From NCBI GenBank assembly GCA_037501455.1, contig CM074858.1, forward strand, positions 87,704,501 through 87,768,500: DNA of 64,000 nucleotides, given 5' to 3'. Origin of the DNA: Lantana camara (Eukaryota > Streptophyta > Magnoliopsida > Lamiales > Verbenaceae). A program made the translations under genes and the position numbers. Of this stretch, positions 4,151-47,594 are shown one piece after another; position 1 is the first letter of the stretch; the number at the start of each line of letters is the position of its first letter. The notes under the pieces are model-generated. The model was not told the origin of the DNA, searched no databases, and saw nothing but the letters and a program-made list of their open reading frames with translations.

Positions 4151-4537
4151 TGTTGGAAAACACGAATCAGAAAGCAGCGGAAATTTAAAAAATTTCCAAC
4201 AAAAGGATCTAGGACTCGCAATCGTGTATCCAAATTCGTAGGGATTAAGAAACTTACTTTTCTTTTATTCTTTCTTGAAGCATTTCAAGCCACCCAAGAA
4301 CGCTCTTCTCCCTGCTTGATCCCCTCTCCTTGGTAAAGTTCGAATCTTCAAACTTCTAACTTGAAGCTCTCTAGAGATAGTCCACCAACTTGATCACAAT
4401 CTAACTAGTAAGGATGCTAGTTCTCTAGTTAGTGTTTAGGCTTAACCTAGGGTTTCGTTTATCTTGGAGAAAGGATGGTGTTTAACACATGAACCAAAAA
4501 AATTGTCAATTAGCTCTAAGGGGAGCTCGAGCTCCCC

Positions 4538-4545
4538 TATTTATA
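4538..4545 (-). promoter_or_regulatory. TATA box in the copia 3' LTR
   Basis: On the minus strand this reads TATAAATA followed by GGGG, next to the palindrome GGAGCTCGAGCTCC at 4522-4535. The equivalent in the 5' LTR is at 21084-21091. Confidence 0.5.
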
Positions 4546-4896
4546 AGAGGGGAGTGGCCGAAATTCCTAGTCCTTATGGACTAGGGTTTTGGTCCCTCTC
4601 TCTCCTATTACTTGATCATCAAGTATTTTGACTTTGACTTTGAATTCTAATTCAAATCAACTTTCAAGAGAGCTAAAAATATCCAAACTATTTTTGGATA
4701 ATTTTATACTTTATTTATTTAAAATAAATAACTTATTTTATCTAATTAATTAATTCATAATTAATTAACTAGATTATTTTTCTCCAAAATAAGACTTTCT
4801 TTTTAATTCAAAATTAAACCAAAGTCTATTAAATAATTAACACATTTAATTATTTAATATATATATATATATATATATACACGATATATATATATA

Positions 4897-4964
4897 CACG
4901 TGTGGGACACGTGTCACAAGGACACGTGTCACTCACGTGACCCACACGTGTGGTTTCACACGTG
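4897..4964. promoter_or_regulatory. Cluster of six G-box (CACGTG) motifs in the copia 3' LTR
   Basis: CACGTG starts at 4897, 4908, 4923, 4934, 4945 and 4959. The 5' LTR keeps three (21444, 21455, 21466), with a fourth site changed to CACTTG. G-boxes are known plant binding sites for bZIP and bHLH factors; use as an LTR enhancer is inferred. Confidence 0.55.
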
Positions 4965-6112
4965 TGGAACCCTTTTGGCCCGATTAACTCGTTTAATCAT
5001 TTTAAAGCCTCAACTCATGTAACCAAGTTGTTGTGTGTGACCCTCTAGGTTCTCAATTCAATTAGCAGTGACCCTAATTAATTAATTCACTAATTAATTA
5101 ATCAGTCCACAGATTAAACGACCATAGTCTAGCAACAGGTGTTTAACCCTTAGCTGAATTGGAATGTTCGGATTCGACAGAACCTTTAAGTCATTGATTT
5201 ATGTGAGATACAATCCTCCTACTTACTATCTCTCAACCAAGATCTAGGGCACGGGAATAATCAGAACCCTAATAATCCGGTCTTAAAGCTAAGTGAATTT
5301 CATATCCATTTGATCTCAATCCAAGAAACCCTTTTCTTGATGTCTTGATCTACTGCCTTGGCCAAGGACTCCATATGGCATATGAATGACTTACACAATA
5401 ATAGATCACCTTGCAAATGCAAGTGTAGGTCCTTTCTTGATTCTCATTCACTTTCATGAATCACTTGTGCAGCCCCAGCATAAGCCTTGAATCAGTTGTC
5501 TAAGGCGACACCCTTTAAAGCTTATACCTAAGACTACAAAGTTAACTCATAAAGTGACAAGGAATCTCAAGTCTAAGGATCAATTAATCACATCAATGAC
5601 TCGTGAGATATTTCCTAATCTGGAAGTTTCTATTTCCTGAAATAGAAACTTCCTTTCCCATTTAGGAATGTTCTCACACGGGGCACCTCAGTGAACTTAC
5701 TTATTAAAGTAAGCACCCTCATGTATGACGCACGTATCAACTATACACTTTGCACCTCCATGAAACAAGGTGCTCCTTCTTAAGGGCGTGATCTCACAAG
5801 CAAGCCTTAGAGGAGTCAGGTTGACACTCCCACTGTCGGTATGACTCATCGGCTTGGAGTATTTTACTAATCATGACTTATGTGAAATAGGGCTCGTTTC
5901 ATGAACCATTTCACCTAAATGGTAGAGTCCTAAAGTCATCAGGATTAGGGGAGTTCTCATACATGCACAGATAAAGTAAACACATACCAAACAAGAGCAT
6001 ATAAAGAAGTGTTGCCTCAATTCGTTATTCCATTCAAAGATTGTATGTGATTACAATAAGGAAAAGCACAAAGCGGATATACAATCGGCTTTCTAGGGCA
6101 CTATTCCTAACA

Positions 6113-6124
6113 ATCTCCCACTTG
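6113..6124 (-). other. Polypurine tract of the copia element
   Basis: On the minus strand it reads CAAGTGGGAGAT, directly abutting the 3' LTR start (TGTTAGG on that strand). This is the expected plus-strand primer site for reverse transcription. Confidence 0.8.
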
Positions 6125-6128
6125 CCCG

Positions 6129-8132
6129 TCAAAGCCATTCTAAAGCTACTCTAAGTCCCATCTTCTGAAGATGACCTTGGAAAGCTTCTCGACTAAGGGG
6201 TTTAGTAAGTGGATCTGCCACGTTCTCTGCTGATGTGACCCTCTCAATTTGTACATCTCCTCTTTTAATAATATCACGGATTAGGTGATACTTCCTCATA
6301 ATGTGTTTGGTCCGTTGGTGAGATCTTGGTTCTCTTGCTTGAGCAACCGCCCCAGTGTTGTCACAAAACACATAAATGGGGTCTTTCATGCTAGGAACAA
6401 CATTCAACTCTTGAATGAAGTTTCTAATCCAAACACCTTCCTTAGCTGCATCATTTGCAGCCAAGTATTCGCCCTCAGTGGTCGAATCTGCAGTGGTCGT
6501 TTGCTTGGAACTCTTCCAACTCACTGCTCCGCCGTTTAGGTAGAAAATGTATCCTGACATTGACTTAAAATCATCTAAGTCAGATGCAAAGCTTGCATCA
6601 CAGTATCCTTCGACAGTAAGAACTTTCTGGCCTCCGTAAACTAAGAATAAATCTTTAGTACTTTTCAAGTACTTAAGAATATTCTTCACGGCAGCCCAGT
6701 GATCATCTCCAGGGTCAGATTGGAAACGACTTGTAACACTAAGTGCATAAGCCACATCCGGTCGAGTACATAACATTGCATACATTATGCTACCTATTGC
6801 TGATGCATAAGGTGTATGAGTCATTCTTTCCTTCTCAAGGTTAGTCTTAGGACACATCTTCTTTGAAAGACATGTTCCTACACTCATAGGAAGGTTCTTA
6901 ACCTTTGCTGACTCCATATTGAATCTCTTCAATACCTTGTCAATGTACATCGACTGTGATAGTCCTATTAACCTTCTAGATCTATCTCTATAGATTTTAA
7001 TTCCAATGATATAGAACGCATCACCCAGATCTTTCATCTCGAATTGGTTCGATAACCATAACTTAGTCACTTTCATGTCATCCTTCGAATTCCCAATAAG
7101 AAGGATGTCATCAACATAAAGTACTAAGAATTGCACTGAGGTCTCCAATTCCTTTCTATACACACATGATTCATTCGAAATTTGGATGAAGCTAAACGCT
7201 TTGGCTGATTCATCAAATTGAATGTTCCAGTTCCTAGAAGCCTGTTTCAATCCATACATTGATCTTTGGAGTTTGCAAACCTTTTGCTCACTCCCACTGA
7301 ATGTGAAACCTATGGGTTGCTCCATATAAATGTCTTTATCAATGTCACCATTAAGAAAGGCAGTTTTCACATCCATTTGCCATATCTCGTAGTCATAATA
7401 CGCAGCAATGGCAAGCATGATCCGAATAGACTTTTGCATTGCAACTGGCGAAAAGGTTTCATCAAAGTCAACGCCGGGTCTTTGAGTGAATCCTTTTGCA
7501 ACCAGTCTTGCTTTGTAGGCTACAATGCTTCCATCAACTCCAAGCTTTCTCTTAAAGATCCATTTGCAACCTATGGGTTTGACCCCATCAGGAAAATCTA
7601 CCAAGGTCCAAACTTGGTTGGAGTTCATGCAGTCCATTTCGGATTTCATGGCTTCTATCCACTGTTCAGAGTCAGAATCTGAAAGTGCCTCCTCATTTGT
7701 TAAAGGATCATTATCCTTCTGAGAGATTTCATGGAAGAATCCATACCATCTCTCCGGCTGTCTAGGAGTGCGTTCAGAACGCCTCAGATGAGGATTTTCG
7801 TGTGTATCGAAATTCGTGATTGGTTGTTGTTGATCAGAAGGGGACGTTTCTTCAGTGGGGGGCGTGGGCTCACTTTGTATTTCCTCTAATTCTATGATCT
7901 TGCCTTTCTTTTCTCTAAGGAATGGTTCCTCAAGAAAAGTGGCATTTCTGGAAACAAACACCTTTTGCTCAGATTGATCATAGAAGTAGTATCCTATGGA
8001 TTCCTTAGGATAACCTACAAAGTAGCATAAGTTAGAACGAGATTCTAACTTATTTCCCACTGTCCTCTTCACGTAAGCAGAACAACCCCAAATTCTTAAG
8101 TAAGAATAACTAGGGATTTTACCATGCCACAT
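6129..8132 (-). CDS. Ty1/copia pol: integrase tail, reverse transcriptase and RNase H
   Basis: A 667-codon open frame forms the C-terminal part of a broken copia polyprotein. Residues 1-130 are the integrase C-terminal region and linker. Reverse transcriptase follows, with MDVKTAFLNG near 253-262 and catalytic YVDD at 339-342. RNase H occupies roughly 505-650, with DASFASD, STTEGEY and the terminal TKHIMRKYHLIRD segment. The first ATG is internal to pol: coding continues upstream in another frame, separated by a frameshift near 8155-8165. It would copy element RNA into DNA in a cytoplasmic particle. The catalytic motifs look complete, but the integrase, protease and gag upstream are broken. 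Confidence 0.93.
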   Translation of the reverse strand: MWHGKIPSYSYLRIWGCSAYVKRTVGNKLESRSNLCYFVGYPKESIGYYFYDQSEQKVFVSRNATFLEEPFLREKKGKIIELEEIQSEPTPPTEETSPSDQQQPITNFDTHENPHLRRSERTPRQPERWYGFFHEISQKDNDPLTNEEALSDSDSEQWIEAMKSEMDCMNSNQVWTLVDFPDGVKPIGCKWIFKRKLGVDGSIVAYKARLVAKGFTQRPGVDFDETFSPVAMQKSIRIMLAIAAYYDYEIWQMDVKTAFLNGDIDKDIYMEQPIGFTFSGSEQKVCKLQRSMYGLKQASRNWNIQFDESAKAFSFIQISNESCVYRKELETSVQFLVLYVDDILLIGNSKDDMKVTKLWLSNQFEMKDLGDAFYIIGIKIYRDRSRRLIGLSQSMYIDKVLKRFNMESAKVKNLPMSVGTCLSKKMCPKTNLEKERMTHTPYASAIGSIMYAMLCTRPDVAYALSVTSRFQSDPGDDHWAAVKNILKYLKSTKDLFLVYGGQKVLTVEGYCDASFASDLDDFKSMSGYIFYLNGGAVSWKSSKQTTTADSTTEGEYLAANDAAKEGVWIRNFIQELNVVPSMKDPIYVFCDNTGAVAQAREPRSHQRTKHIMRKYHLIRDIIKRGDVQIERVTSAENVADPLTKPLSREAFQGHLQKMGLRVALEWL

Positions 8133-8805
8133 TTCATAGGGCGTTTTAGGGACTGACTTAGAGAACTAGATTCAAAATCTTTGCTGCACTTTCTAGGGCA
8201 TAACCCCAAAAAGAAGGTGGTAAGTCAGTGAAACTCATCATGGAGCGAACCATATCAAGTAAGGTTCGATTCCTTCTCTCAGAAACTCCATTAAGCTGAG
8301 GAGTTCACGGAGGAGTCCACTGAGAGAAAATCCCATTATCTTTGAGATGATTAAGGAATTCTTCACTAAGATACTCGCCTCCTCGATCAGATCGAAGTGC
8401 TTTGATCTTGTGACCAGTTTGGTGCTCAACCTCCTTTTGAAATTCTAAGAATTTCTCAAAAGCTTCAGATTTATACTTCATTAAGTATACATAACCATAT
8501 CGACTAAAGTGGTCGGTAAAGGTTATGAAATACTGATGATTGTTTCTAGTGCTTACACTAAGCGGTCCACAAACATCAGTATGGATCAAATCCAAAACCT
8601 TAGTGGCACGTTCCACAGTCCCTTTAAAAGGGACTTTGGACATTTTTCCTTTGAGACAGGATTCGCAAGAAGTTAACTCCTTAAGATCATTTTCAGAGAA
8701 TGATCCTAAAGTGTTTATCTTGCTAATTTTGTTCTTGGAAATATGTCCCAATCTAGCGTGCCATAAGGGAGCTGAAACTTTGTCATCTTTCTTACGCTTC
8801 GTTTC
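8133..8805 (-). pseudogene. Ty1/copia integrase, broken
   Basis: Reading leftward on the minus strand, the zinc-binding domain begins LWHARLGHI and ends with SCESCLKGK, giving the His-His-Cys-Cys set. The catalytic core shows HTDVCGPL, FTDHFSRYGY and DRGGEYLSEEF, the expected Asp-Asp-Glu residues. An in-frame TGA at 8305-8307 falls just after the QWTPP segment. The frame then continues (QLNGVSERRNRTLLDM) to a one-base frameshift near 8155-8165, after which the reverse transcriptase frame takes over. This enzyme inserts element DNA into the genome; this copy would be truncated. Confidence 0.9.
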
Positions 8806-9102
8806 TCATTGTATATTCATAATATTGATATTCTGAGTTAGATAAAGTCCATTACTTAGAGTACCGATGTGAACGGAAGAGTTTTTCCGTTTGATAAAAT
8901 ATTTACCATTCTTAATATAAGTTTCATAACCTTCACAATCTAAAATTGGAACAAAAATTATATTACGAATAATTCTCGGTACATAAAGGACTTTATTTAA
9001 GACTAACTCAAAACTACCTAAATCTAATCTAATTGTGCCTAAAGCTCGAGCTTCAACATTTGAGCCATCACCGATCTTCAAGACACATTCTCCTTCTTTG
9101 AG
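8806..9102 (-). pseudogene. Ty1/copia protease C-terminal and pre-integrase segment
   Basis: This frame links protease to integrase (LGTIRLDLGSFELVLNKVLY, then NGLYLTQNINI) and is in phase with both neighbours. It is closed upstream by a TAA at 9103-9105 and downstream by a TGA at 8806-8808. Both stops lie inside what should be one continuous polyprotein frame. Confidence 0.85.
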
Positions 9103-10040
9103 TTATTGGACTTCACTTAGCATCTGTACATCATTACAGATATGAGTTCCACAACCGGTATCAAGTACCCAAGAACTAGAATTAATAGAAAGATTTACTT
9201 CAACGAGAAAGATACCTTTCTTTAGAGTAGCCTTGTACTCTGGGCAGTTTCTCCTCCAATGTCCCGCTTTGCCACAATGGAAGCAAACATCCTCTTTCTG
9301 ATCACGCTTCTTCTTTTGGGCCTTCCCCTTCGAAACGCCACCAGTGGGCCTAAGGGGTTTCTTCTTCTTCCTTTGGGCTTTCTTGCCCTTACCTTTAGAA
9401 GGCCCAGAAGAGGAAGATGGAGCATTCACCATCAAAACCTTATTGTCCTTCTTGATCGTGCTTTCAGCAGTCACAAGCTGACTAATCAGCTCAGCTACAG
9501 TAGCACCAGCATGATTCATATTGAAGTTAAGGACAAATGGGTTGAATGATGGTGGGAGCGAAGCTAGCAACAAATCCACTGAAAGCTCATCTTTCAGTGG
9601 CATGTCCATGGAAGCAAGTTTCTCAGTAAGGGCGAGAAACTTGAGTCCATATTCATGGACACTTGAACCTTCTCTCATTCTCAAGTGGAACAATTCCTTT
9701 GAAGTGTTATACCTTGTAACACGTTCATGAGGGCGGTAAAGTTTCTCTAAGTGGTTGTAAATCTCCAAAGCGAATTCCATGGCCTCATGTTGCCTTTGCA
9801 AGTCCGGAGACATGTTAGCCAACATAAGGCAACAGGCTTGGAGATTATCATCCTTCCACTTCTGTCCCGCTCGGACCGAGTGGGAGCCTCCCCTTCGGGA
9901 CTAGGCTTCCCTTCGAAGAGAACATAAGTTCTCTTCTCACAATCTAAAATGATTTTTAGATTCCTCAGCCAATCAGAATAGTTGGGACCAGTCAACTTAT
10001 TTGAATCGAGGATCGACACAAGAGGGTTTTTGGTTGCCAT
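9103..10040 (-). pseudogene. Ty1/copia gag with start of protease, frameshifted
   Basis: The frame starts at the ATG at 10040 (MATKNPLVSILDSNKLTGPN), with a gag-type N-terminus followed by a SDWLRNLK segment. A one-base shift near 9870 moves reading to the frame that ends at 9103. The downstream part has a copia gag helix region, a Lys-rich basic tract, a CCHC zinc knuckle CFHCGKAGHWRRNC (residues 181-194 of that frame) and the protease motif VLDTGCGTH (Asp at 222). Gag would form the particle and package RNA. The frame ends at an internal TAA. Confidence 0.88.
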
Positions 10041-10247
10041 TTCAAAACACGTAGAGAATCACAGAATCTACGACCTAAATGGTAAAACAGAGAACTAGTG
10101 AGCATGCTGAATTATAACGATATACAAAAGATAAGGTCTTTAATCTAATGTAGCTCCCACTGTTTTTCAAAGATCTAGAATTCCCAAAGATCTAAGAGGA
10201 ACACGTTTCCCAATGGGTACTAAGATCCTAGGCTTTTTACCTCGAAC

Positions 10248-10571
10248 CCACGACTCGTGGACATTCTAAGTAAAACCCTAGGTAGGTACAACTTACCAAT
10301 TCTAACACCTTTAGAACTCTTAGTAATTGTTTTTTTTTTTTTGCATCGCCTATCTTTCAATATGGACCCACGACTCGTGCGACGTCCATATTTACTTAGG
10401 CGTTAAGCTAGACCCATCAATCATAAGATCATGATCAAAACTTAGTTCGAACGACCCACGACTCGTGGACATCGCCCTTGCCAAAATTGACCACGAAATA
10501 TTGACCATTTAAAATGATCAATTAGGTAACTAAGAACTAATAAGCTCCACTAGCTATCCCACGACTCGCGG
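10248..10571. repeat. Four dispersed CCACGACTCGTGG palindromes
   Basis: Inverted repeats with arms CCACGA and TCGTGG around one base start at 10248, 10368, 10456 and 10559. The second and fourth each carry an arm change (CTCGTGC, CTCGCGG). All lie in the copia leader, about 88-120 bases apart. Confidence 0.8.
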
Positions 10572-11742
10572 AAAATAACTAGCTTCACTTACTAAACTTA
10601 AAACCTATTGATGGAATGCTAGGAATTTAATTCAAAATTTGCATCTCAAATTAAATACCTATTTGTTCGAAATTAGCTTAATATTTGATGGGAATTTTCG
10701 AATCAACCGGAGAGTTGTCCGGTTCGACCTCACCAACATATATGTTATCCAATTTTATTAGTCTTGATTAATGCAAGTACACTTAAATGCATTTCAGACA
10801 AGCACATAAACAGATAACATGTCCTAGCATGATACTAACATGTAATGATCATGGGTTCTACCTATCTTATGCGTGATATGTGGGAGCCATTCCACAATCA
10901 CAAGTTCTAACATACATGCCACATAAACAGTTTAAATCACATAAGGGAAAGCGGTAACAAAATACGAGCTCTATCTCTATTACATTTAACAATTGAGATT
11001 CCCCTCCCTAACATTTTGAGGGGTCTTCACTTATGGCCTCCTTGTTACTTGAATGTGGTCCATCTTACTCCATGGGTGCATTGTCTCCAAAATGAAAATA
11101 AAACCTCACCACCTATCTCTACTCTCAAATTACAATAAAAGGAAAAAGACATAAACTAATAAGGCTCAATCTTCATATTGGCCTTAGACAATTACACGGG
11201 GCATACCCCGGCCTCAAAACAGTAATATGGAAAGCCACATAATAAATCACATAACAGTACGCACATAAGTGAGGCTCCAACCTCAATTGAAAAACGCAAC
11301 TATAGGGCTCCAACCCCAATTTAAACCATCCATGTGCATAAATTAAAACCATACATAGATCTAAACCCATGATCGCCTAAGATGCTTAAATTGCAAGAAT
11401 TTAAATTTAACTAATAAATTAAAATTCTCGCTGTAAGCTCTAATAGCTTAAAACACGACTTAGATGCAATTCTTGTTCAAGAGCCTTTTCAATAAAACCG
11501 AAAAAACAATAAACTAATAAAATTCCAATTAATTTTTGAAAATTAATAATTTTATTCTTTCAATATTTTCAGAAAATAAAGTTTGCAATTTTTCCCAAAA
11601 TTTAAATCGATCAATTTCTTAAAAATCCCAATTTAATCAAAATTTTAAAATAATTTTATTTTTGTAAAACTGATTTTAAAAGATAAAATTAAAATAAAAT
11701 TAAATCGGGATTTTCAAGGGCCGAAAACACGAAACACGAAGA

Positions 11743-12070
11743 TTGGCCCGAAACCACCCACCCAAGGGAGGGCACCGCCGCGCAGCATCAAGCGCACGCG
11801 CGCCAGCTGTGCGCACAGCGTGCGGTAATTGCCGCCCGCGTGCGCGCGCTGGGCGCTCGGCTTGTGCGCTTGTCGCGCGCAGCAGTGCCTGCCCGATGGC
11901 GGGCGGTCTCGGCCAGGGCGTCCCGCTCTGTTGCGGGACGGCGCGGGCGGCTGTCCCGCGCGGTTGCGGGACAGGCGAGCGGGCGAGCCTAGGCGCGTGC
12001 GGGAGGGCCTCCCGCGCGGTTGCGGGAGGGCTGGGCGGCGGCGACGGGCTGGGCGTGCGACTTGCTAGCA
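11743..12070. repeat. GC-rich island with three related hairpins
   Basis: The island is very GC-rich within otherwise AT-rich DNA. It holds three hairpins: arms CGTCCCGC / GCGGGACG (11919-11940), CTGTCCCGC / GCGGGACAG (11951-11974) and CCTCCCGC / GCGGGAGG (12008-12029). Loops are TCTGTT, GCGGTT and GCGGTT. The outer arm bases differ between units yet still pair. A weaker GCCCG-AT-GGCGGGC lies at about 11891. Confidence 0.75.
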
Positions 12071-12345
12071 CGCCTAGGCTCGTCCTATTTCGTGTTCGTT
12101 TCGTATTTTGGGTTTCTCCAAAACCCGTTTCAATTAAAAAAAATATTCGATTTAGATAAATTTCAACTAAAACGATTTTCAAAAACAAGATTTGAGAAAA
12201 CAGTTTTAGAAATTCAGAAAAAATTACAGTTTCGTATTTCAAGCTTTCTAAAAGAACTCATGAATACCTAATTTACATCTAAGCCTAAGAATTTCTACCA
12301 AATTCAGAATAATAGAGATGAATCAGAAACACGATTAACGAGGTG

Positions 12346-12357
12346 GCTCTGATACCA
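12346..12357 (-). other. tRNA-Met primer-binding site of the copia element
   Basis: On the minus strand it reads TGGTATCAGAGC, the common plant initiator-Met tRNA primer site, two bases from the 5' LTR end. Confidence 0.88.
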
Positions 12358-12392
12358 CTTGTTGGAAAACACGAATCAGAAAGCAGAGGAAA

Positions 12393-14968
12393 TGTAGCAC
12401 CCCTGTACGAAGAGATTCTATACCCCCGCACTATAGGCCGATCCACATACGAAATGGACAATCCGTACATGAACTAACTACGGGTGACAAGTAAAAGAAA
12501 CAGGCTAGCTAGGCGGGACTATACCCCAAAGTAGTACGAATCCAAGACATAAAAGTTAAAAGCGGAAGCATAATATCAATATTACTTATAGGTACCATAT
12601 TTCCATCAAAAGTATAAATATTAATAGGTACCAACATGTATCAATACATTATCATCTCCAATATATTATACAGATAAAAGTCTCCAGATGATAACAATAA
12701 CAATAATAGACTAATTCTGAGATACCACTATCAATAACTTGAAAGTACGTGAAGTGCTAGACTCAACTGGACAACAAGACATGACTCTGACTCCCGCCTA
12801 GCACACGACCGCGACAACCTGAAAGGTGGGGTGTCAGTCCATGGAAGACTGAGTGAGGGGCATAAATATATATATTAGCGCAATTACCATGCAAGTTATA
12901 ACCTCGGGTAAGGTTTTACAATTAAAAGTAATATAAGTTCCCAATCACATAAACTCGCCCGAGATTACAACTACCAATATTAAGCAATTTAATCATTTTC
13001 ATGTTTCAATGTGTGAAATATGTGGCCCGGCGAGTGAGGGCAATCTCCAACCTTACTCCAACTGTGTACAATACATGCTGGCTTTATCTTTTAATAAGTG
13101 ATCATGCAATTAAGCTATCGTGCAGTCGTGCAGGTGTATTCAGGCAGAACAATCAATACATGCAATCATGACAATAACCCGAGGACAATCCGTGGTGCCG
13201 GACCCGTCCCCAGTCTCCTTCTTCCTCTGGTGATGGTGGGATTGCAAGGCCCCACCATCCCATCTCATTGAGCAGAGGGTACATGAATCCCTAAGCCCGG
13301 AGCTCCTTCCTCCACTAATCTCCTAGCGGATTCAGGGGTGACCCCAAATGTGGTGAGGATAATGTTTGAGTTACCCGTCAGCCCATGCTTTCCCGGTTGG
13401 CTCAAACCATTACCCTTGGGCCCAACGTGACATGCTTTACTCGCCAAAACACGATCAATCAATCAATCATGATACATGACTTGCTTGCAATTGTGTATAA
13501 GTTTAGAAAACATTAGAAATAAGTATATATATACCTTTTGGCTTGAAATCCACATAAAGGTTATATGGGTTCTATATACTAGCAATTAAACCTCACCTTT
13601 ACCGACAAAAGACAAGTAGGGCACGGCCTACGGGGCTTGCTCCTCGTCCCTACGAAGCTGGTCTGTGCAAAATAGACGTGTACACGTGAGACTTGACTCT
13701 AAATAGACCAAATATGACGAACGGCGAAAATGCAACAAGATGACGTGCAAATCACAATGTGGCATGAAAACATCTTGTTTCGGTACATATTGGATCATAT
13801 AATAGCAATTCGGGGTCAAAGAAGACGTTGGATCGAGGGGCTAAAAACGTAATTTTATGCAGAATGTTTTGTTCTGCATGTCAGGTGGGAACGGTCGTTC
13901 TGGCTTCCCTTTGTAAATGGGAACGGTCGTTCCCATAAACCCCAAAACATGCCAGCGTTTTTAATTTAAGAAACGCTCCTTGGCTGGGAACGGCCCTTCC
14001 GGCACTAAGGCCAAAATGGGAACGGCCGTTCCCATGCTCAGCCGCCTGTTTTGTTTGAAAAGGTGGGAACGCCCGTTCCCACAATGCCTTGAGGCTGGGA
14101 ACGGTCGTTCCCAGTTTCTGCAAATGAAGAAAACAGAGAAGAACAGAGCATAGCTACGGGAAGCAACAACCAAGCCACCAAGTTCCAATTTTGATCCCCA
14201 AATGCTATTATTTCTGGCACTACTCATGTATATATGTTCATAAGATGATAATATAACACTTAAACACTTAAATCACTAAAGAACACCAAGAATTCCCACT
14301 TTCAAGCTCATACCCCATATCACCACAAAAGCTCAAGTTATTCAAGAATTCATGCTTTAATTTATGGTATAATCATATATTCATGCGTCTAATACCATAT
14401 AATCCATATATTGCATAAATCACAAACCCTAACTACTTCATATATGCTCAAGAATCATCAATCCATACATAAACCCACCTTGAGCTTAAAGAAATGAAGA
14501 AGGAAGAGGATGATGATGATCAACTTCAAAGCTTAAAATATTTCTTGGAATCTTGGTGAAAATTGGATGAAATCTCCTTCCTACTTCTTAGCTTAAGGTT
14601 CGGTGGAAGAAAGGGAAGCAAACCGATGGATTTTGGTGCCAAAATGATCAAGGAAGCTTGGAGATATAATAATACGTGATTCACCATCCTTGAAATTGAT
14701 GAAAGGATCAATTTGCAATTTAGTCCCTCAAGGGTTTTAAATCATGCAATTAAGGATAAATGGTTTGTTAATTGATCAATTAAGTCCTTGGAAAAGTTAT
14801 GCAATTTGGTCCCTCGATTTAAAAGAATGAACGTTTAGGGAAATTCCGTAATTAATCAAACTCGGTAAATATTTTACACAATGAATATTTTCAAGTCATG
14901 AAAGGAATTATTGCTTTGATATAAATTTATAAAATTTCATGAAAATATTATAAAATATAATTTATAAA
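12393..14968 (-). repeat. 3' LTR of family B, inner end deleted
   Basis: This aligns closely with 18094-20724 but stops at TTTATAAA. The last 50 or so bases present in the other copy (after 20680, ending GGGCATTACA) and the polypurine tract are missing. It also lacks a short segment after 12478 (CTATAGCGA-like) that the other LTR keeps. Confidence 0.9.
13887..14112. repeat. GGGAACG-type palindrome cluster in the family B LTR
   Basis: Six copies of a 16-base inverted repeat occur here, including GGGAACGGCCGTTCCC, GGGAACGGTCGTTCCC and GGGAACGCCCGTTCCC, with two decayed copies. The equivalent cluster in the other LTR is at 19596-19821. The arms GGGAACG/CGTTCCC are constant and the centre varies. 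Confidence 0.85.
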
Positions 14969-15005
14969 CAGGTCCACTGTCAAGTTCCGAATGATACACA
15001 AGCTA

Positions 15006-15167
15006 TAAGAGAACCCCGTTTCTTAACCAAGGAATGAAAGAACCCCGTCTTTCAACAAGAAGTGAGAAAACCCCGTTTCTCAGCAAGAAGTGAGAGAGCC
15101 CCGTCTCTCAATAGGGAAATGAGAGAGTCCCGTCTCTCAACAGGAAATGAGAGAGCCCCGTCTCTCA
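15006..15167. repeat. Array of six 20-bp hairpins with co-varying arms
   Basis: Units lie at 15006, 15035, 15063, 15091, 15120 and 15148, each 20 bases, spaced 28-29 bases. Arms are TAAGA/TCTTA, TGAAAGA/TCTTTCA, TGAGAAA/TTTCTCA and then TGAGAGA/TCTCTCA three times. Loops are ACCCCG, GCCCCG or GTCCCG. The array sits just inside the truncated 3' LTR. A related array is in family A at 45434-45568. Confidence 0.9.
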
Positions 15168-15372
15168 ACAGGGAAATAATTCAAGGAGCAAGTTGTAGAA
15201 ACAATGGCACGAATGTTACATAAACAAATAGGTTCATATTAATTCATAAATATCATACAGACAAGTAAAACCATTTTAATCACATACTTATCACTCATAA
15301 TTAACTAACTTGCAACAAATAAGAAATTAAATACAATAACAATAAAATTCATGATGCACATGATATGCATGG

Positions 15373-16161
15373 CTAAATGTACAGTTCACCGATGGTTGTA
15401 CTATGCATATAGTTGGTACCTTCTTCCTTCCTGACCGAATTCACATTCACAATTTGTACCCCCCTCTCACGAACACCTTCCCGAGCCCGAACAAGCAATC
15501 TTTCATCCCTGGTAGATTTCTTTTGTCGCTTGGAACATGTATCTATTTGATGCTCGTCGCTCCCACAATACAGGCATAACCCTAACCGTCTTCTACAACC
15601 CTCATAACTGTGATTATCACGTCCACAATAGTTGCAAAGAAGTTTCCCGGAAGATGTTATTGAAGCTGGGGTACGTGAAGCTCCCGAACTCGATCCAAGT
15701 GATTGTTTTTTTTTCTTTCGGGATCTTTCTTGAGGTGTCGGGGTATGATAAGGGAGAGGTCGCTTTCCTTTGTTGAAGTTTTGTGCTAATTTTGAGCCTG
15801 AAGTCTGCCCGGATTGAGGATTAGACCTTCTTACCACCAACGAGGTGGTGCCTCGAACTTTCTCTTGGGAACCATTTGGAGTTAGTTCCCACACTCTTTT
15901 AACTTTCCTAAATCGCGGCTCAACCGGAACATTATTTCCTTCAAAGACCTTCGAGGGTTGTTGGTTTTGAAACTCCCTAAAGGCTATCGAAATTTGGTCC
16001 GGCTGTGGTGAAGAAACTAGTGGCACTGATGATACATACTCTTTTATCTTCTGATCGATCAAACTAACCAAGGAATCGAAAAACTCTTGAGGTCGAATCG
16101 GAGGGGGTAAATGTGGAGGAACCCTAGGCTCTCATTCGTGATGAGGGCGACCTTGAGACAT
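15373..16161 (-). pseudogene. Family B gag remnant with two CCHC zinc knuckles
   Basis: An ATG at 16161 (MSQGRPHHE) opens a frame interrupted once by TGA and then open to 15373. The C-terminal half carries two knuckles, CNYCGRDNHSYEGC and CLYCGSDEHQIDTC, 7 residues apart, after a basic Ser/Lys-rich tract. This paired arrangement is seen in gag of Del/Tekay-type gypsy elements. The usual capsid domain is not visible between the N-terminal segment and the knuckles, and no protease or reverse transcriptase follows, so I infer a large internal deletion. If made, the product could bind element RNA but not form a normal particle. Confidence 0.75.
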
Positions 16162-18074
16162 CCTGAAATCAAGACACTAGATATGCATGTTGAGTTAATA
16201 TGTCAATGCAGATACACACTTGGAAGTAATAACTTCAACATATTAGAATAATTACGTTCAATCGGGGAAGGCACACATAATTATAGAAATTTAAAAGTTT
16301 AAAGTAACGTATGATGCACGTGCTTATGGATGCATTGAACCTGTCACCGGAGTAATGGAAAGCTTTATCTTGGCATGTAATTCCTTGTTTGTTGAAATAT
16401 AAGTTTATCTTGAATCGTTGGTCATTTCTTGTTTTTCCCACGGTCTTCTAATTTCAAAATTACCTAGCAACAATTTGTGTATTCCCACGGCTTGAGATTA
16501 TAATTTCTTGAACCTGAAGTCTTCTATGCTCATGGAAATAGCATCTTGTCTTTTATTTAATGTTAACTTTCCAATTGTTGCCCAAGTCTTCTTCATGGTT
16601 GTCATTCCGTTCAAAACTTCCTGGTTTACTCTTTAGGAATTCAAATAATTAAATGAACTCCCTTTTCCATTGTTTATACTTGATCGCCCGACATCCACCT
16701 AGCAATTCCTTGCCTTCCTTTATCGTCCTCATTTTGTTGCTTCACATCTTTTAACATGACCCCACAACACGACAATTCAGCTTGGATCTAGAAAATACTC
16801 CAACTAGATAAAACCTTTAGCGTGATCGCCTTCCAAATTTATATCCACCGGAGTGTCAAACCTCCTTTATTCCTTCCCTTAATTAAAATCCCCAAATCAT
16901 GCTATCTCCCATAATTCTCTTTGCTTTATTTCCATGAAGGTTAAACTTTGTTGCTTCTTGCCTCTTACCATAACTACTTCCTTGATTGATAATTTTCTTG
17001 TATTAATTTGTGTGATTGTATGACCCCAAATATGGACTCTTGAATTCAACTCTTCTCCACTTATGGAAGTAGCTTCCAAACTTCCTTTAAACAAATAAAT
17101 CTTCAATTATTGCCCCGATTCATCAAGGTGCCACCGTGACCGAAATCTCTTAAATCTAGTTTTTATAAGTTGAATAATTGTTGAACTTGTCTTCTTACTT
17201 GCTTACGCCTTGTACATATAATTTCCTTCCCTTCATTCTTCATTCTTATCATTTTCGTTTGCTAATTAATACCTTCTGCTTTGCTCTCTAAACATGGCAA
17301 CTCAACTTGAATCTGAAAAACGAGCTCAATCCACCCAATTATAGGATCCATAGCATTCTAACCTTTCATGAATAGATCATCCGACTATACTAAATTGATT
17401 TGAATTATTGGAATGATTTCCCTCTCCTACTTGAATTTGCTTCCCAATTAACTGAGTCTTAATTTGACAACACGCCCGAATCTTGAATAATTAGTACCTC
17501 GCTTCTCCCTTCACCTAGCCCTCGAATGAAATATAATTTCCACGGTTGGTTCTTTCACTCCGAATTTCGTTCTTTGGAATCATAACTTGATAGAAGAAGT
17601 TGACGATTCTCAGATCCACATATGAATTCCCCGGTTCACTTCTAACTCTTCCAAGCTAAAGAAATAGCACTTGTAATATACTGAGGTTGTCATACAAGTT
17701 GGCCGTGGGGTTGATATCACTTCCATAACCTGTAACTCACAATTTACTTTGAAAATAAATGCATGTGGGTGAGGCGTGCTCATGTCACACGATTGTCACC
17801 TAGTTGATGCCCACAAGGAGAGTTTAATAGAAAATGCAACAGGTAATTTATCAATGTTTAAAATAAAACACGTTGAGCACGTAATTCCGAATAATTCAAG
17901 ATCAATGAATTAACAATTAATAGCAAACATTAATGCAGGGCGTAGTTTATCAGGTAATTTACTAATTCAAATAAATTCAAATAATATGCAAGACTCTCAA
18001 ATTATCAATTAATCCTATGTCGTTCGACCTAGACTTGACACGACACGACACGAGAACCTCGGTTTTGCAACCGG
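16162..18074 (-). other. Non-coding interior of family B
   Basis: About 1.9 kb without convincing coding sequence lie between the primer site and the gag remnant. The segment next to the primer site (about 18015-18086) resembles the corresponding segment of family A (about 47520-47586). Confidence 0.7.
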
Positions 18075-18086
18075 GCTCTGATACCA
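18075..18086 (-). other. Primer-binding site of family B
   Basis: The minus strand reads TGGTATCAGAGC, seven bases from the 5' LTR at 18094. It matches the Met-tRNA primer site also used by family A and the copia element here. Confidence 0.88.
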
Positions 18087-18093
18087 CCTTGGA

Positions 18094-20724
18094 TGTAGCA
18101 CCCCTGTACGAAGAGATACTACACCCCCGCACTATAGGCCGATCCACATACGAAATGGACAATCCGTACATGAACTAACCTATAGCGAACGGGTGACAAG
18201 TAAAAGAAACAGGCTAGCTAGGCGGGACTATACCCCAAAGTAGTACGAATCCAAGACATAAAAGTTAAAAGCGGAAGCATAATATCAATATTACTTATAG
18301 GTACCATATTTCCATCAAAAGTATAAATATTAATAGGTACCAACATGTATCAATACATTATCATCTCCAATATATTATACAGATAAAAGTCTCCAGATGA
18401 TAACAATAACAATAATAGACTAATTCTGAGATATCACTATCAATAACTTGAAAGTGCGTGAAGTGCTAGACTCAACTGGACAACAAGACATGACTCTGAC
18501 TCCCGCCTAGCACACGACCGCGACAACCTGAAAGGTGGGGTGTCAGTCCATGGAAGACTGAGTGAGGGGCATAAATATATATATTAGCGCAATTACCATG
18601 CAAGTTATAACCTCGGGTAAGGTTTTACAATTAAAAGTAATATAAGTTCCCAATCACATAAACTCGCCCGAGATTACAACTACCAATATTAAGCAATTTA
18701 ATCATTTTCATGTTTCAATGTGTGAAATATGTGGCCCGGCGAGTGAGGGCAATCTCCAACCTTACTCCAACTGTGTACAATACATGCTGGCTTTATCTTT
18801 TAATAAGTGATCATGCAATTAAGCTATCGTGCAGTCGTGCAGGTGTATTCAGGCAGAACAATCAATACATGCAATCATGACAATAACCCGAGGACAATCC
18901 GTGGTGCCGGACCCGTCCCCAGTCTCCTTCTTCCTCTGGTGATGGTGGGATTGCAAGGCCCCACCATCCAATCTCATTGAGCAGAGGGTACATGAATCCC
19001 TAAGCCCGGAGCTCCTTCCTCCACTAATCTCCTAGTGGATTCAGGGGTGACCCCAAATGTGGTGAGGATAATGTTCGAGTTACCCGTCAGCCCATGCTTT
19101 CCCGGTTGGCTCAAACCATTACCCTCGGGCCCAACGTGACATGCTTTACTCGCCAAAACACGATCAATCAATCAATCATGATACATGACTTGCTTGCAAT
19201 TGTGTATAAGTTTAGAAAACATTAGAAATAAGTATATATATACCTTTTGGCTTGAAATCCACATAAAGGTTATATGGGTTCTATATACTAGCAATTAAAC
19301 CTCACCTTTACCGATAAAAGACAAGTAGGGCACGGCCTACGGGGCTTGCTCCTCGTCCCTACGAAGCTGGTCTGTGCAAAATAGACGTGTACATGTGAGA
19401 CTTGACTCTAAATAGACCAAATATGACGAACGGCGAAAATGCAACGAGATGACGTGCAAATCACAATGTGGCATGAAAACATCTTGTTTCGGTACATATT
19501 GGATCATATAATAGCAATTCGGGGTCAAAGAAGTCGTTGGATCGAGGGGCTAAAAACGTAATTTTATGCAGAATGTTTTGTTCTGCATGTCAGGTGGGAA
19601 CGGCCGTTCTGGCTTCCCTTTGTAAATGGGAACGGTCGTTCCCATATACCTCAAAACATGCCAACTTTTTTAATTTAAGAAACGCGCCTTGGCTGGGAAC
19701 GGCCCTTCCGACACCAAGGCCAAAATGGGAACGGCCGTTCCCATGCTCAGCCGCCTGTTTTGTTTGAAAAGGTGGGAACGCCCGTTCCCACAATGCCTTG
19801 AGGCTGGGAACGGTCGTTCCCAGTTTCTGTAAATGAAGAAAACAGAGAAGAACAGAGCATAGCTATGGGAAGCAACAACCAAGCCACCAAGTTCCAATTT
19901 TGATCCCCAAATGCTATTATTTCTGGCACTACTCATGTATATATGTTCATAAGATGATAATATAACACTTAAACACTTAAATCACTAAAGAACACCAAGA
20001 ATTCCCACTTTCAAGCTCATACCCCATATCACCACAAAAGCTCAAGTTATTCAAGAATTCATGCTTTAATTTATGGTATAATCATATATTCATGCGTCTA
20101 ATACCATATAATCCATATATTGCATAAATCACAAACCCTAACTACTTCATATATGCTCAAGAATCATCAATCCATACATAAACCCACCTTGAGCTTAAAG
20201 AAATGAAGAAGGAAGAGGATGATGATGATCAACTTCAAAGCTTGAAATATTTCTTGGAATCTTGGTGAAAATTGGATGAAATCTCCTTCCTACTTCTTAG
20301 CTTAAGGTTCGGTGGAAGAAAGGGAAGCAAACCGATGGATTTTGGTGCCAAAATGATCAAGGAAGCTTGGAGATGTAATAATACGTGATTCACCATCCTT
20401 GAAATTGATGAAAGGATCAATTTGCAATTTAGTCCCTCAAGGGTTTTAAATCATGCAATTAAGGATAAATGGTTTGTTAATTGATCAATTAAGTCCTTGG
20501 AAAAGTTATGCAATTTGGTCCCTCGATTTAAAAGAATGAACGTTTAGGGAAATTCCGTAATTAATCAAACTCGGTAAATATTTTACACAATGAATATTTT
20601 CAAGTCATGAAAGGAATTCTTGCTTTGATATAAATTTATAAAATTTCATGAAAATTTTATAAAATATAATTTATAAAATTATTGTAAACATAGAAATGTA
20701 ATTAATGAAATTTGGGGCATTACA
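18094..20724 (-). repeat. 5' LTR of family B (complete, 2631 bp)
   Basis: It runs from TGTAGCACCCC to GGGCATTACA on the + strand and includes the palindrome cluster at 19596-19821. Short open frames within it are mirrored in the other LTR and are not genes. Confidence 0.92.
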
Positions 20725-21398
20725 GGAAATTTAAAAAATTTCCAACAAAAGGATCTAGGACTAGCAATCGTGTATCCAAATTCGTAGGGATTAAGAAACT
20801 TACTTTTCTTTTATTCTTTCTTGAAGCGTTTCAAGCCACCCAAGAACGCTCTTCTCGTGGCTTGATCCCCTCTCCTTGGTAAAGCTCGAATCTTCAAACT
20901 TCTAACTTGAAGCTCTCTAGAGATAGTCCACCAACTTGATCACAATCTAACTAGTAAGGATGCTAGTTCTCTAGTTAGTGTTTAGGCTTAACCTAGGGTT
21001 TCGTTTATCTTGGAGAAAGGATGGTGTTCAACACATGAACCAAAAGAATTGTCAATTAGCTCTAAGGGGAGCTCGAGCTCCCCTATTTATAAGAGGGGAG
21101 TGGCCGAAATTCCTAGTCCTTATGGACTAAGGTTTTGGTCCCTCTCTCTCCTATTACTTGATCATCAAGTATTTTGACTTTGACTTTGAATTCTAATTCA
21201 AATCAACTTTCAAGAGAGCTAAAAATATCCAAACTATTTTTGGATAATTTTATACTTTATTTATTTAAAATAAATAACTTATTTTATCTAATTAATTAAT
21301 TCATAATTAATTAACTAGATTATTTTTCTCCAAAATAAGACTTTCTTTTTAATTCAAAATTAAACCAAAGTCTATTAAATAATTAACACATTTAATTA

Positions 21399-21446
<48 letters not shown>

Positions 21447-22627
21447 GTGTCACTCACGTGACCCACACGTGTGGTTTCACACTTGTGGAACCCTTTTGGC
21501 CCGATTAACTTGTTTAATCATTTTAAAACCTCAACTCATGTAACCAAGTTATTGTGTGTGACCCTCTAGGTTCTCAATTCAATTAGCAGTGACCCTAATT
21601 AATTAATTCACTAATTAATTAATCAGTCCACAGATTAAACGACCATAGTCTAGCAACAGGTGTTTAACCCCTATCTGAATTGGAATGTTCGGATTCGACA
21701 GAACCTTTAAGTCATTGATTCATGTGAGATACAATCCTCCTACTTACTATCTCTCAACCAAGATCTAGGGCACGGGAATAATCAGAACCCTAATAATCCG
21801 GTCTTAAAGCTAAGTGCATTTCATATCCATTTGATCTCAATCCAAGAAACCCTTTTCTTGATGTCTTGATCTACTGCCTTGGCCAAGGACTCCATATGGC
21901 ATATGAATGACTTACACAATAAGAGATCACCTTGCAAATGTAAGTGTAGGTCCTTTCTTGATTCTCATTCACTTTCATGAATCACTTGTGCAGCCCCAGC
22001 ATAAGCCTTGAATCAGTTGTCTAAGGCGACACCCTTTAAAGCCTAAGACTACAGAGTTAACTCATAAAGTGACAAGGAACCTCAAGTCTAAGGATCAATT
22101 AATCACATCAATGACTCGTGAGATATTTCCTAATCTGGAAGTTTCTATTTCCTGAAATAGAAACTTCCTTTCCCATTTAGGAATCTTCTCACACGTGGCA
22201 CCTCAGTGAACTTACTTATTAAAGTGAGCACCCTCATGTATCACGCACGTATCAACTATACACTTTGCACCTCCATGAAACAAGGTGGTCCTTCTTAAGG
22301 GCGTGATCCCACAAGCAAGCCTTAGAGGAGTCAGGTTGACACTCCCACTGTCGGTAGGACTCATCAGCTTGGAGTATTTTACTAATCATGACTTATGTGA
22401 AATAGGGCTCGTTTCATGAACCATTTCACCTAAATGGTAGAGTTCTAAAGTCATCAGGATTAGGGGAGTTCTCATGCATGCACAGATAAAGTAAACGCAT
22501 ACCAAACAAGAGCATATAAAGAAGTGTTGCCTCAATTCGTTATTTCATTCAAAGATTGTCTGTGATTACAATAAGGAAAAGCACAAAGAGGATATACAAT
22601 CGGCTTTCTAGGGCACTATTCCTAACA
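20725..22627 (-). repeat. 5' LTR of the Ty1/copia element, larger part
   Basis: This resumes, after the GGAAA duplication, the LTR begun at 12360-12392 and ends CTATTCCTAACA. The likely TATA box (TATAAATA, minus strand) is at 21084-21091, with CACGTG motifs at 21444-21471. Interruption by family B separates its first 33 bases (+ strand order) and the primer site from the promoter by 8.3 kb. Confidence 0.92.
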
Positions 22628-23886: not shown

Positions 23887-24194
23887 TGGCTATTCAATGT
23901 GTTATTCCAAGAAAGATCCAATCTGTTAGCCTTTTGATGTGTTATAGCAGCAAACTGGGCTATTGAATTAATATAGACTTGCTTATTTTTATTACATCAT
24001 TTGTAGTATGTAGCATGGATTGGCTTCAATGCAAAGATTTTTGAAGATTTTGAGTAAAAAGAATGTATTTGGATTTTCAGAATTTGATTACTCATATATA
24101 GAATGTATTTAGAATTAGAATTTATATCAAAATTTTAGATTCAAAACAGGTATAATAATAAATAAATAAAATAAAAAAAAAATAATTTTAACTT

Positions 24195-24579
24195 TTCCGA
24201 GGGAATTCCCTCGGAAATGTGTTTGTCCATTTTTTTTTAATTCTATATTCCGAGGGAATTTTCGAGGGAATTCCCTCGGAAATATTTATTTCTATTTTTT
24301 TTTAATTTTATTTTCAGAGGGAATTCCCTCGGAAATCTTTTTGTCCAATATTTTTTTTAATTTTATTTTCCGAGAGAATTTTCGAGGGAATTCCCTCGGA
24401 AAATTTTCCGAGGGAATATCATCATTGGGTTCATTCCGAGGGAAATATTATGATTTTTATTTCCCTCGGAGGGAATTCCCTCGAAAATTTTTCCCTCGGA
24501 ACCAATTCCGAGGAGGCTTTTTTCCGAGGGAATGGTTTCCCTCGGAATTCCCTCGGAATTCGGCTGTTTTCTTGTAGTG
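24195..24579. repeat. Subterminal palindromic repeats of CACTA-1
   Basis: Repeats of TTCCGAGGGAATTCCCTCGG and its parts occur in both orientations, more than ten times in under 400 bases, up to the TTGTAGTG terminus. CACTA elements carry subterminal repeats as transposase-binding sites. The units here are themselves perfect palindromes (CCGAGGGAATTCCCTCGG). Confidence 0.85.
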
Positions 24580-33475: not shown

Positions 33476-35036
33476 TGTTGAGTCGTGTTTTCTTGCTCCT
33501 TTGAGGCGTTATTTACGTATTTTTAGCCCTACATTTAGAATCTTATTGGAATTTTATGCTCTTTGCAGATGTTTTTAACATAGAAGAGTTAGAGGGACGA
33601 AATGGAGCAAAACCCGCCAAAATTCAAGCTTAAAAAGGATATCTTACAACTTTGAATTGTTGTTGCCTTCATTTGGAAATCCACCCCCGTGGATTTCGCA
33701 GTTCAAAATTTTCCACCCTCGCGGAAATTTGAGGCAGAAGCTTTCTGACCTAAATCCACCCCCATGGATTTCGCAGTTCAAAATTTTCCACCCTCGCGGA
33801 AATTTGAGGCAGAAGCTTTCTGACCTAAATCCACCCCCATGGATTTCGTAGTAGAAAAAAATCCACCCCCGTGGATTTTTATTATAAAGTGTCAGTGCGT
33901 TTTCAAAATCCACCCCCGTGGATTTATTTGCCCTTGAAAATCTACCCCCCTGGATTTTCTCCAGAAATACGTTTTTCCTAGTTTTTAACCTACTTTTCGG
34001 GGGTGTTTGAGGGAGCTTCGTTTTTTTAACCTAATTGGGAACAAGGAGCAGCGAAGGAGAGATTCTGAAGCCGCCATTTCCATACCTTGAAGCCATGAAG
34101 ATCATTTGATAAATTAGTTTGCATTTTAAATTCCTTATTGCTTTCTTAGCTAATATAGTATAATTTCCCTTTCTAGTTTGATTAAGTAAGTTTTAGCTCT
34201 TGTATGAGCCTTTTGACCTTGGATGTTTGAGTTTGAATCTTGATCTATGAATATGATTTACTTTCAGAATGATTCATCTTATTCTTGGGTTGAGTGTGTG
34301 GATATGAGTGGCTAGATCTCAAGAGCTAGGGGATGACACAAAGTGAGGATTAGGTGTTTGATAAAATGTCTCAATGAATGAGTTTGGTTCTTATGTTGGG
34401 AAAATGGTTTCAAAGCTTGTGTGAGTGTGGCCTACTTATACTTGATCCTTAATTCACCTTCTAATTGAGAAATTGTTTGTGAGTTGGTAATATTTTCCTA
34501 AACACTTGAAGTCTAGGTCTAAAGAGATTTAACTTAACTTTGAGCAATTGAATCATGATTAATAATGCCAAGCCTCTAATTAGTTAATGATACTAACCTT
34601 GAGCTTTTGGCCTAATCTTTGTTTCAATGATCACGAGAGTGGCTTTGTCTTAGACTAGGTACGTGCACTAGACTTTGAGAAAAGCTAGTGTATATATATA
34701 AGTGGTTAGAATTGTAAGAACAACTTCATTTGTTGAGCATTGAATTTGCACCGAAGCCTTATAAACGTGTTATTCCCCCGGCTCCCTTTAAATTACTTGA
34801 GTTTCATTTAAGAGTTTAATTACTTGTTTACTTTAGTTTGCCTGTGTTTACCCTTCTCATTTTCTTAGCGGCTAGTTCATTACTACAAATTTCCTTCTGG
34901 TCTATAGATTAACAAACGCACTTTACAATTGACTTTGAGTTCCCCTTCCCCTGGGATTCGACCCCTTGTGCTACAATTGATTCTTTTACAACTTGCACTT
35001 AGGTTACATTTTTACTACCAATTCGACCATCTTGCA
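33476..35036 (+). repeat. 3' LTR of the Athila-like element (right end approximate)
   Basis: It starts TGTTGAGTCGTG immediately after the polypurine tract. No second copy is in the window, so the right end, placed near the CTTGCACATC segment, is a guess. It includes GGGATTCGACCCCTTG at about 34955, a pattern often near the end of gypsy LTRs, and the hairpin cluster at 33670-33960. Confidence 0.6.
33670..33960. repeat. Hairpin cluster inside the Athila-like LTR
   Basis: At least six AAATCC-GGATTT inverted repeats (for example AAATCCACCCCCGTGGATTT) alternate with TTTCCACCCTCGCGGAAA. A unit of about 77 bases, from near 33690, is tandemly duplicated. Later copies show changed centres (CCCCCATGG, CCCCCCTGG). 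Confidence 0.85.
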
Positions 35037-45375: not shown

Positions 45376-45393
45376 ATCTCTCCCCCTTAAAAG
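45376..45393 (-). other. Polypurine tract of family A
   Basis: On the minus strand it reads CTTTTAAGGGGGAGAGAT, abutting the 3' LTR. Confidence 0.82.
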
Positions 45394-45433
45394 AATCCGT
45401 CCTCGGATTCAAAACACGCTTGAAATCAAATAA

Positions 45434-45568
45434 TGAGAGATTCCCCGTCTCTCACAAACAACAAGGAGAGAGCCCCGTCTCTCAAGCAGTAATGAGAGAA
45501 CCCCGTCTCTCGCAAGCAAAGAGAGTACCCCGTCTCTCAAACAAAAATAAGAGAATCCCCGTCTCTTA
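45434..45568. repeat. Array of five 18-21-bp hairpins with co-varying arms (family A)
   Basis: Units start at 45434, 45465, 45493, 45521 and 45548. Arms are TGAGAGA/TCTCTCA in the first, near versions in the next three, and TAAGAGA/TCTCTTA in the last. Centres all contain CCCCG. It lies 40 bases inside the polypurine tract, the same place as the family B array. Confidence 0.88.
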
Positions 45569-47586: not shown

Positions 47587-47594
47587 CTTAAGGA

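Follow-up and report, generated by a model that had tools for sequence, protein, structure and literature searches.

Tandem hairpins with matched arms beside the 3' LTR of Lantana camara retrotransposons: a candidate cis-acting element

Introduction

Other lineages of plant LTR retrotransposons are known to carry tandem repeats in the stretch from pol to the 3' LTR. In Ogre/Tat elements, such repeats occupy the 3' untranslated region (UTR), which separates the coding sequence from the 3' LTR; they are hypervariable there and seed satellites (PMC7004042). The arrays described here resemble them in standing ahead of the 3' LTR and in differing between families, but they consist of 20-nt hairpin units, which number from three to nine to an array in the loci displayed, and the accessible sections of the Ogre/Tat account make no mention of covarying hairpins, a common loop, or a hairpin on the side of the polypurine tract (PPT) (PMC7004042). 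Retand elements likewise have arrays downstream of pol and ahead of the 3' LTR, and the available text of a 2025 paper calls their origin and function unknown; Retand is a lineage outside the chromoviruses that has antisense ORFs and long internal regions, and the main text of the paper uses neither the word "hairpin" nor the term "secondary structure" (PMC11963269). In Ty3, both UTRs and POL matter for localization and packaging, and 3' UTR segments of a bipartite PBS pair with the primer tRNA. Ty3 thus resembles the present case in having cis-acting sequences in the 3' UTR, although the accessible portions of the two Ty3 papers describe no tandem hairpin array (PMC4974528, PMC11381356). A G-quadruplex built from GGGG loops of the sense RNA was also considered for the present arrays; quadruplexes in plant LTR elements, as far as the available sections of the source go, lie mainly inside the LTRs (PMC3902901).

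A literature search covering mainly open-access journals returned no description of covarying hairpin arrays or of a covarying PPT-side hairpin in plant LTR elements. Here, we analyze an array of six hairpins (positions 15006 to 15167) in a 64-kb stretch of L. camara DNA, referred to as the window, together with related arrays from the same genome. Two window elements carry such arrays, and they appear to have the build of TR-GAG and non-coding LTR elements; to our knowledge, the array is no part of the definition of either class. We propose, tentatively, that the array may act in cis as a structured RNA element recognized by Gag.

Materials and methods

Loci related to the window array were found by similarity to it (L001 to L028 and L086 to L090), which favors arms like its own; by a loop-only pattern of three CCCGT motifs at the array spacing with the arms unspecified (L059 to L079 and L081 to L084); or by the presence of one perfect main unit (L091 to L110). 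The set of 77 arrays excludes CCGACGG arrays, loci L067, L069, L073, L080, and L085, as well as 30 short pattern loci (L029 to L058) and arrays with identical units. GGATCC and CCCGTG repeats were also left out of the array survey. From the window, only the two arrays described below were included. Ill-formed units in L083 and L104 were kept and count against pairing. Stem pairs were numbered outward from the loop, with the main unit (TGAGAGA/TCTCTCA) as the reference. An LTR end plus a pyrimidine tract (the complement of the PPT) was sought within 520 nt of each array.

Results

The array is the last feature ahead of the 3' LTR of an LTR retrotransposon that lies on the minus strand and contains a gag-like ORF (Table 1). 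The window copy has two LTRs (98.6% identity over the aligned part) and a PBS, which we take to be of the initiator-Met type, and a PPT is present in its relatives. No tRNA gene was found within the 64-kb window. A sequence-only reading had placed the array just inside the 3' LTR. This placement was borne out, with the correction that the window copy no longer has its PPT and also lacks half of the hairpin on the PPT side and some 47 bp at the tip of the 3' LTR, all of which relatives retain.

Table 1. Positions of the hairpin units and of the elements that carry them, numbered along the window
Feature	Positions	Strand	Description
5' LTR, host element	18093..20724	(-)	Starts TGTAATGCCCC on minus strand; ends read from sequence
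3' LTR, host element	12392..14968	(-)	Without about 47 bp of its first end
PBS, host element	18073..18086	(-)	TGGTATCAGAGCCC on minus strand, read from sequence; presumably initiator-Met type
gag/nucleocapsid-like ORF, 252 aa	15373..16131	(-)	Encodes two zinc knuckles of the CCHC type as well as a basic stretch
Unit, first in element sense	15148..15167	(-)	TGAGAGA/TCTCTCA, plus-strand loop GCCCCG
Unit	15120..15139	(-)	TGAGAGA/TCTCTCA, plus-strand loop GTCCCG
Unit	15091..15110	(-)	TGAGAGA/TCTCTCA, plus-strand loop GCCCCG
Unit	15063..15082	(-)	TGAGAAA/TTTCTCA, loop ACCCCG; pair 2 changed on both sides relative to main unit
Unit	15035..15054	(-)	TGAAAGA/TCTTTCA, loop ACCCCG; pair 4 changed on both sides
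Unit 1	15006..15025	(-)	TAAGAGA/TTTCTTA, loop ACCCCG; pair 6 changed on both sides, G.T mispair at pair 2
Second array, five units	45434..45568	(-)	In element without coding capacity, LTRs 41094-45376 and 47595-51891
PPT-side hairpin, second element	45393..45410	(-)	GAATCCG-TCCT-CGGATTC

TR-GAG elements are defined by a gag ORF and the absence of pol from the internal region. The 252-aa ORF with its two knuckles is the longest within the 3.1 kb separating the LTRs, but a Pfam search gave no family above the cutoff, gag included, and a homologue search gave none at an E value of ≤0.001. Membership in the Tat clade would be read from pol, and that in the Tekay/Del chromoviruses from an integrase with a chromodomain and the RT of the clade; neither the 3.1-kb internal region nor the 2.2-kb internal region of the second window element contains a pol-sized ORF. 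No autonomous partner with pol was found among the loci fetched. We considered as a candidate the array of L083, beside a fragment that we judged by eye to be integrase-like, and dropped it because this fragment lies 3' of the array in the sense direction. LTR-like repeats that are 96.4% identical (4179 to 6112 and 20725 to 22627) flank the host element, which seems, from their arrangement, to be nested in a larger element (4179 to 22627). A further short hairpin, CGGTT-GCAA-AACCG in element sense, can form just downstream of the host PBS (within 18055 to 18092).

The second array belongs to an element whose LTRs are 99.6% identical. Between them, no ORF exceeds 81 aa, and yet the element retains a PBS, a PPT, the PPT-side hairpin, and the five-unit array. 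The presence of PBS, PPT, and array in an element that does not code suggests that the array is a module acting in cis. Just downstream of this PBS (within 47545 to 47594), a short hairpin with the sequence CCGGTT-ACAA-AACCGG in element sense can likewise form.

The six units of the first array are 20 nt long and repeat with a period of about 28 nt. Five of them form a perfect 7-bp stem around [A/G][C/T]CCCG, and unit 1 has a single G.T mispair. The tandem units and their matched arms are as the sequence-only reading had listed them. Each of the other unit types differs from the main unit by one pair, changed on both sides: TGAGAAA/TTTCTCA at pair 2, TGAAAGA/TCTTTCA at pair 4, and TAAGAGA/TCTCTTA at pair 6. 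Several relatives have lost one base from the loop of unit 3 while keeping its stem whole. A scan of positions 14900 to 15300 against Rfam 15 gave no match above the gathering cutoff (one match with an E value of 0.99 and 17.2 bits versus a cutoff of 54).

Hairpins of many sorts are abundant in the window. With low-complexity stems left out and hairpins in duplicated LTRs counted twice, 77 had stems of at least 7 bp, compared to a mean of 11.3 (maximum, 19) in 60 first-order Markov controls, and an unanchored scan found 19 with a CCCC or GGGG loop versus a mean of 0.15 (maximum, 1) in 60 controls. Each LTR of the host element holds a cluster of four GGGAAC-G[GC][TC]C-GTTCCC hairpins (13917 to 14114 and 19626 to 19823) in which the outermost pair varies (A-T, A-T, G-C, and C-G) and one loop is the self-complementary GGCC. 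Hairpins with the arms ACCGAGACAC/GTGTCTCGGT and GGGTGACAC/GTGTCACCC and GGGG or CCCC loops occur in the LTRs of the second element (43555 to 43611 and 50070 to 50126) and in a related stretch (1110 to 1167), relative to which one hairpin of the second-element LTRs has its loop inverted. Further hairpins, of the form AAATCCAC-CCCC-GTGGATTT, lie at 29573 to 29711 and 33676 to 33925 together with variants whose arms are altered, for example to AAATCCGC/GCGGATTT. At 11919 to 12029, the arm differences among CGTCCCGC/GCGGGACG, CTGTCCCGC/GCGGGACAG, and CCTCCCGC/GCGGGAGG are matched, and two of the three share the loop GCGGTT. A perfect inverted repeat of at least 30 bp (30 bp being the limit of the scan) surrounds CCCCC at 52764 to 52828. 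Arrays of palindromes of the CCGAGGGAATTCCCTCGG and CCGACGGGA..TCCCGTCGG types at 24194 to 24561 and in L068 presumably resemble the subterminal repeats of CACTA transposons.

Next, we examined the surroundings of the 77 arrays. A PPT was found on the expected side, 43 to 313 nt away, in 66 of them and on the other side in none, so that the placement next to the 3' LTR proposed for the window copy holds for these 66 as well. The distance was 43 to 56 nt in 51 of the 66 and 80 to 313 nt in the other 15. Because the PPT is always on the expected side, the loop reads CGGGG in element sense wherever a PPT is seen. The 11 arrays without one are the window copy (L001), six arrays of a single flank group (L059, L081, L091, L092, L104, and L106), and L083, L084, L086, and L098. 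The PPT-side hairpin had a perfect stem of 6 bp or more at 55 of 64 sites. Its stem is GGACCTGG/CCAGGTCC with the loop TCC at 39 sites, GAATCCG/CGGATTC with the loop TCCT at 7, and GAATCTGG/CCAGATTC at 2, with single variants at the remaining 7; the loop is TCC or TCCT with few exceptions. The hairpin is absent in L014 and L016 and broken in L070 and L105.

At the scale of the 1.27-Gb genome, the exact main unit occurs 7,541 times. The loop-only pattern gave 18,779 and 18,584 matches on the two strands versus 381 and 422 for a reversed control. Some of the matches to the loop-only pattern are not this array, as the 100 places listed include CCCGTG, GGATCC, and other repeats. To count arm changes, we used a pattern without a pairing filter (left arm TRARARA and right arm TYTYTYA) and obtained the classes by subtraction. 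There were 10,412 units in total, 8,049 with the right arm unchanged, 7,904 with the left arm unchanged, and 7,541 with both unchanged, which leaves 508 units with a change in the left arm alone, 363 with one in the right arm alone, and 2,000 with changes on both sides. Independent margins would give about 569 units changed on both sides (odds ratio of about 82, among copies that are related). Among the 100 units listed from this pattern, 68 were unchanged, 3 were changed on the left only, 3 on the right only, and 26 on both sides; in 24 of these 26 the two changes matched exactly, in 1 partially, and in 1 not at all.

The association also holds within arrays. The 390 units of the 77 arrays have on average 6.32 of 7 Watson-Crick pairs, compared to 5.75 when right arms were shuffled within each array (maximum of 5.84 in 1,000 shuffles, so that the observed value was never reached). 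Across 206 distinct units, stem pairs 6, 4, and 2 were the top three of all 231 column pairs by covariation, and stem pairs 3 and 5 ranked sixth and eleventh. By hand calculation, the chance that the top three all come from the seven stem pairs is about 2 in 100,000 under random ranks. Arrays occur in several flank groups, and clean both-sided changes were found in six of eight; a seventh (L083) offers nothing but an ill-formed unit, and L070 has none. Other arms carry a like loop (for example, CCGTGACA/TGTCACGG, GGTGACA/TGTCACC, and GTTGACA/TGTCAAC in L067, L069, and L073), a likeness that is partly a product of the search because these loci were found by a CCCGT anchor, and some of their units are badly paired. 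Two near-identical arrays 5.6 to 6.9 kb apart were seen in each of L066, L068, and L075, as tandem LTR-internal-LTR-internal-LTR structures would lead one to expect.

Covariation was also compared to a phylogenetic null. On a tree of units, matched double changes fell on 5 branches versus a null mean of 2.0 and maximum of 8, so that the null was not rejected; the tree was built from 24 nt and has little power. A first version, which fixed a 6-nt loop register and so misaligned units with 5- or 7-nt loops, gave E values of 2.5 to 8 for stem pairs 6, 4, and 2 and did not reject the null either; the second took the register from the left arm only. The covariation test is thus divided, with stem pairs at ranks 1 to 3 of 231 but no excess of double changes on the tree. 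Conversion among a few unit types, which the sequence-only reading had named as a threat to its claim, holds in part: four types (TGAGAGA, TGAAAGA, TGAGAAA, and TAAGAGA) make up most sampled units, and independent double changes are not above the null. The claim that pairing itself is kept is supported by the arm association, the pair ranks, and the matched arm variants of the PPT-side hairpin, although the tree null stands.

In 28 copies, the mean share of minority letters was lowest in arms (0.037) and loops (0.042), higher in linkers (0.097), and highest in flanks (0.142). Similarity to the array was the criterion by which these copies had been found, so that the comparison with flanks is biased and that with linkers is the fairer one. 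This low variation of arms and loops relative to linkers bears on the rival that survives best, a mutational origin. Template switching in the course of replication or reverse transcription, with one arm serving as template for the other, could have perfected the hairpins, and the few resulting types could then have been multiplied by unit duplication and transposition, with no selection on pairing needed. The dominance of four types, the tree result, the excess of hairpins of many sorts in the window, and the differing orders in which TGAGAGA and TGAAAGA units repeat across the two arrays of L075 are all consistent with such an origin. Besides the linker comparison, however, it is opposed by the constant side and place of the arrays relative to the PPT, by the retention of an array in a non-coding element, and by a skew among mispairs (below) far stronger than that in the flanks. 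We therefore consider a purely mutational origin unlikely, though it is the most serious competitor of a cis-acting RNA element.

To see which strand folds, we compared the mispairs in the arms. Among distinct units with at least 4 pairs, A.C mispairs on the plus strand outnumbered G.T mispairs by 42 to 19 (P = 0.004); the counts were 32 versus 13 (P = 0.007) with at least 5 pairs and 14 versus 7 (P = 0.19) with at least 6, the strictest cutoff. As A.C on the plus strand corresponds to G.U in the sense RNA, pairing is better preserved in the sense strand. The flanks of the 28 copies show a slight skew at most (per site, G>A at 0.78 and 0.81 versus C>T at 0.71 and 0.71 and T>C at 0.56 and 0.52 versus A>G at 0.52 and 0.51). 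The genome-wide excess of left-only over right-only changes points the same way as sense-RNA pairing. Folding predictions favor the opposite strand. The sense RNA of the window copy did not fold better than its shuffles (z = +0.49), whereas the other strand did (z = -3.29). In 56 arrays, the mean predicted probability of the unit stems was 0.19 in the sense RNA versus 0.43 in the other strand, which was higher in 50 of the 56; energies were calculated with RNA, not DNA, parameters. In the PPT-side hairpin, every mispair of L079, L093, and L101 is a T.G or G.T when read on the plus strand, the reverse of the tendency in the arms. The evidence on the folding strand is therefore mixed.

The array might also be imagined to fold at the DNA level, within minus-strand cDNA or in chromatin in the form of cruciforms, and to shape the initiation or termination of plus-strand synthesis. 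Of the minus-strand cDNA, the part upstream of the PPT would be expected to remain single-stranded for the longest time. The better prediction of local hairpins on the CCCC strand, which is that of the minus-strand cDNA, would fit this scenario, as would the mispairs of the PPT-side hairpin on that strand and the narrow range of distances to the PPT in most arrays. The arm mispairs, in contrast, favor G.U in the sense RNA, the predictions themselves come from RNA parameters, and no LTR element is known to us to rely on an array of this kind. A DNA-level role thus appears quite improbable.

Discussion

The reading that we prefer is that the array forms a multivalent structured element that acts in cis at the 3' end of the genomic RNA and whose likeliest use is recognition by Gag or its nucleocapsid domain. 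We give this reading a probability of roughly 0.45. Each unit is a hairpin of up to 7 bp whose G-rich loop reads, in most cases, CGGGG[C/U] in the sense of the element, and three to nine such units plus one stronger hairpin stand upstream of the PPT. The molecule that folds would be the sense RNA, and its repeated G-rich loops would be bound, most likely by the zinc knuckles of Gag/nucleocapsid. RNA carrying the array, even when it comes from elements that code for little or nothing, may thereby be selected for packaging or brought to the reverse transcription complex. Nucleocapsid zinc knuckles favor exposed guanines, as is established for retroviruses. The G-rich loops in repeated hairpins, together with the adjoining nucleocapsid-like ORF, make Gag recognition the first candidate. 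In retroviruses, however, packaging signals are usually at the 5' end, which counts against this reading. So do the folding predictions, the loss of significance of the mispair skew at the strictest cutoff, the mispairs in the PPT-side hairpin and its absence or breakage in some loci, the tree null, and the failure to find an autonomous partner with pol. Among the roles that the sequence-only reading had put forward, we infer that packaging, dimerization, or reverse transcription may apply, whereas a role in 3'-end formation is improbable for an array that precedes the entire 2.6-kb 3' LTR.

After Gag recognition, RNA export or stability ranks second among the likely uses of this RNA structure. 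In some retroviruses, transport elements follow the last gene and precede the 3' LTR, and by analogy the array would occupy the same place in the transcript with a repeated structured motif that is kept in a non-coding element. The only comparison of sequence and structure available here, that with Rfam, gave a single match far below the cutoff, and we regard this use as rather improbable. Binding sites for a dimeric protein on double-stranded DNA, which the dyad-symmetric, GAGA-type arms and the period near 28 bp might suggest, are very improbable given that the arms change while the symmetry stays, that different arms carry the same loop, and that the asymmetric loop holds its orientation.

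If the array is indeed a cis-acting RNA element, a bolder and more doubtful extension is that it represents a modular, multivalent 3' assembly signal common to many retrotransposon families of a single genome, with arbitrary arms and a fixed G-rich loop, through which one Gag could capture both coding and non-coding elements. In such a signal, the loop would carry the code, with the stem as no more than its scaffold, which would explain why the same loop is found on other arms elsewhere in these elements.

Tandem repeats ahead of the 3' LTR that keep their base pairing, orientation, and place make the question of their function testable. The arrays could supply plant LTR elements with a defined cis-acting signal and could show how non-coding elements get mobilized by others.
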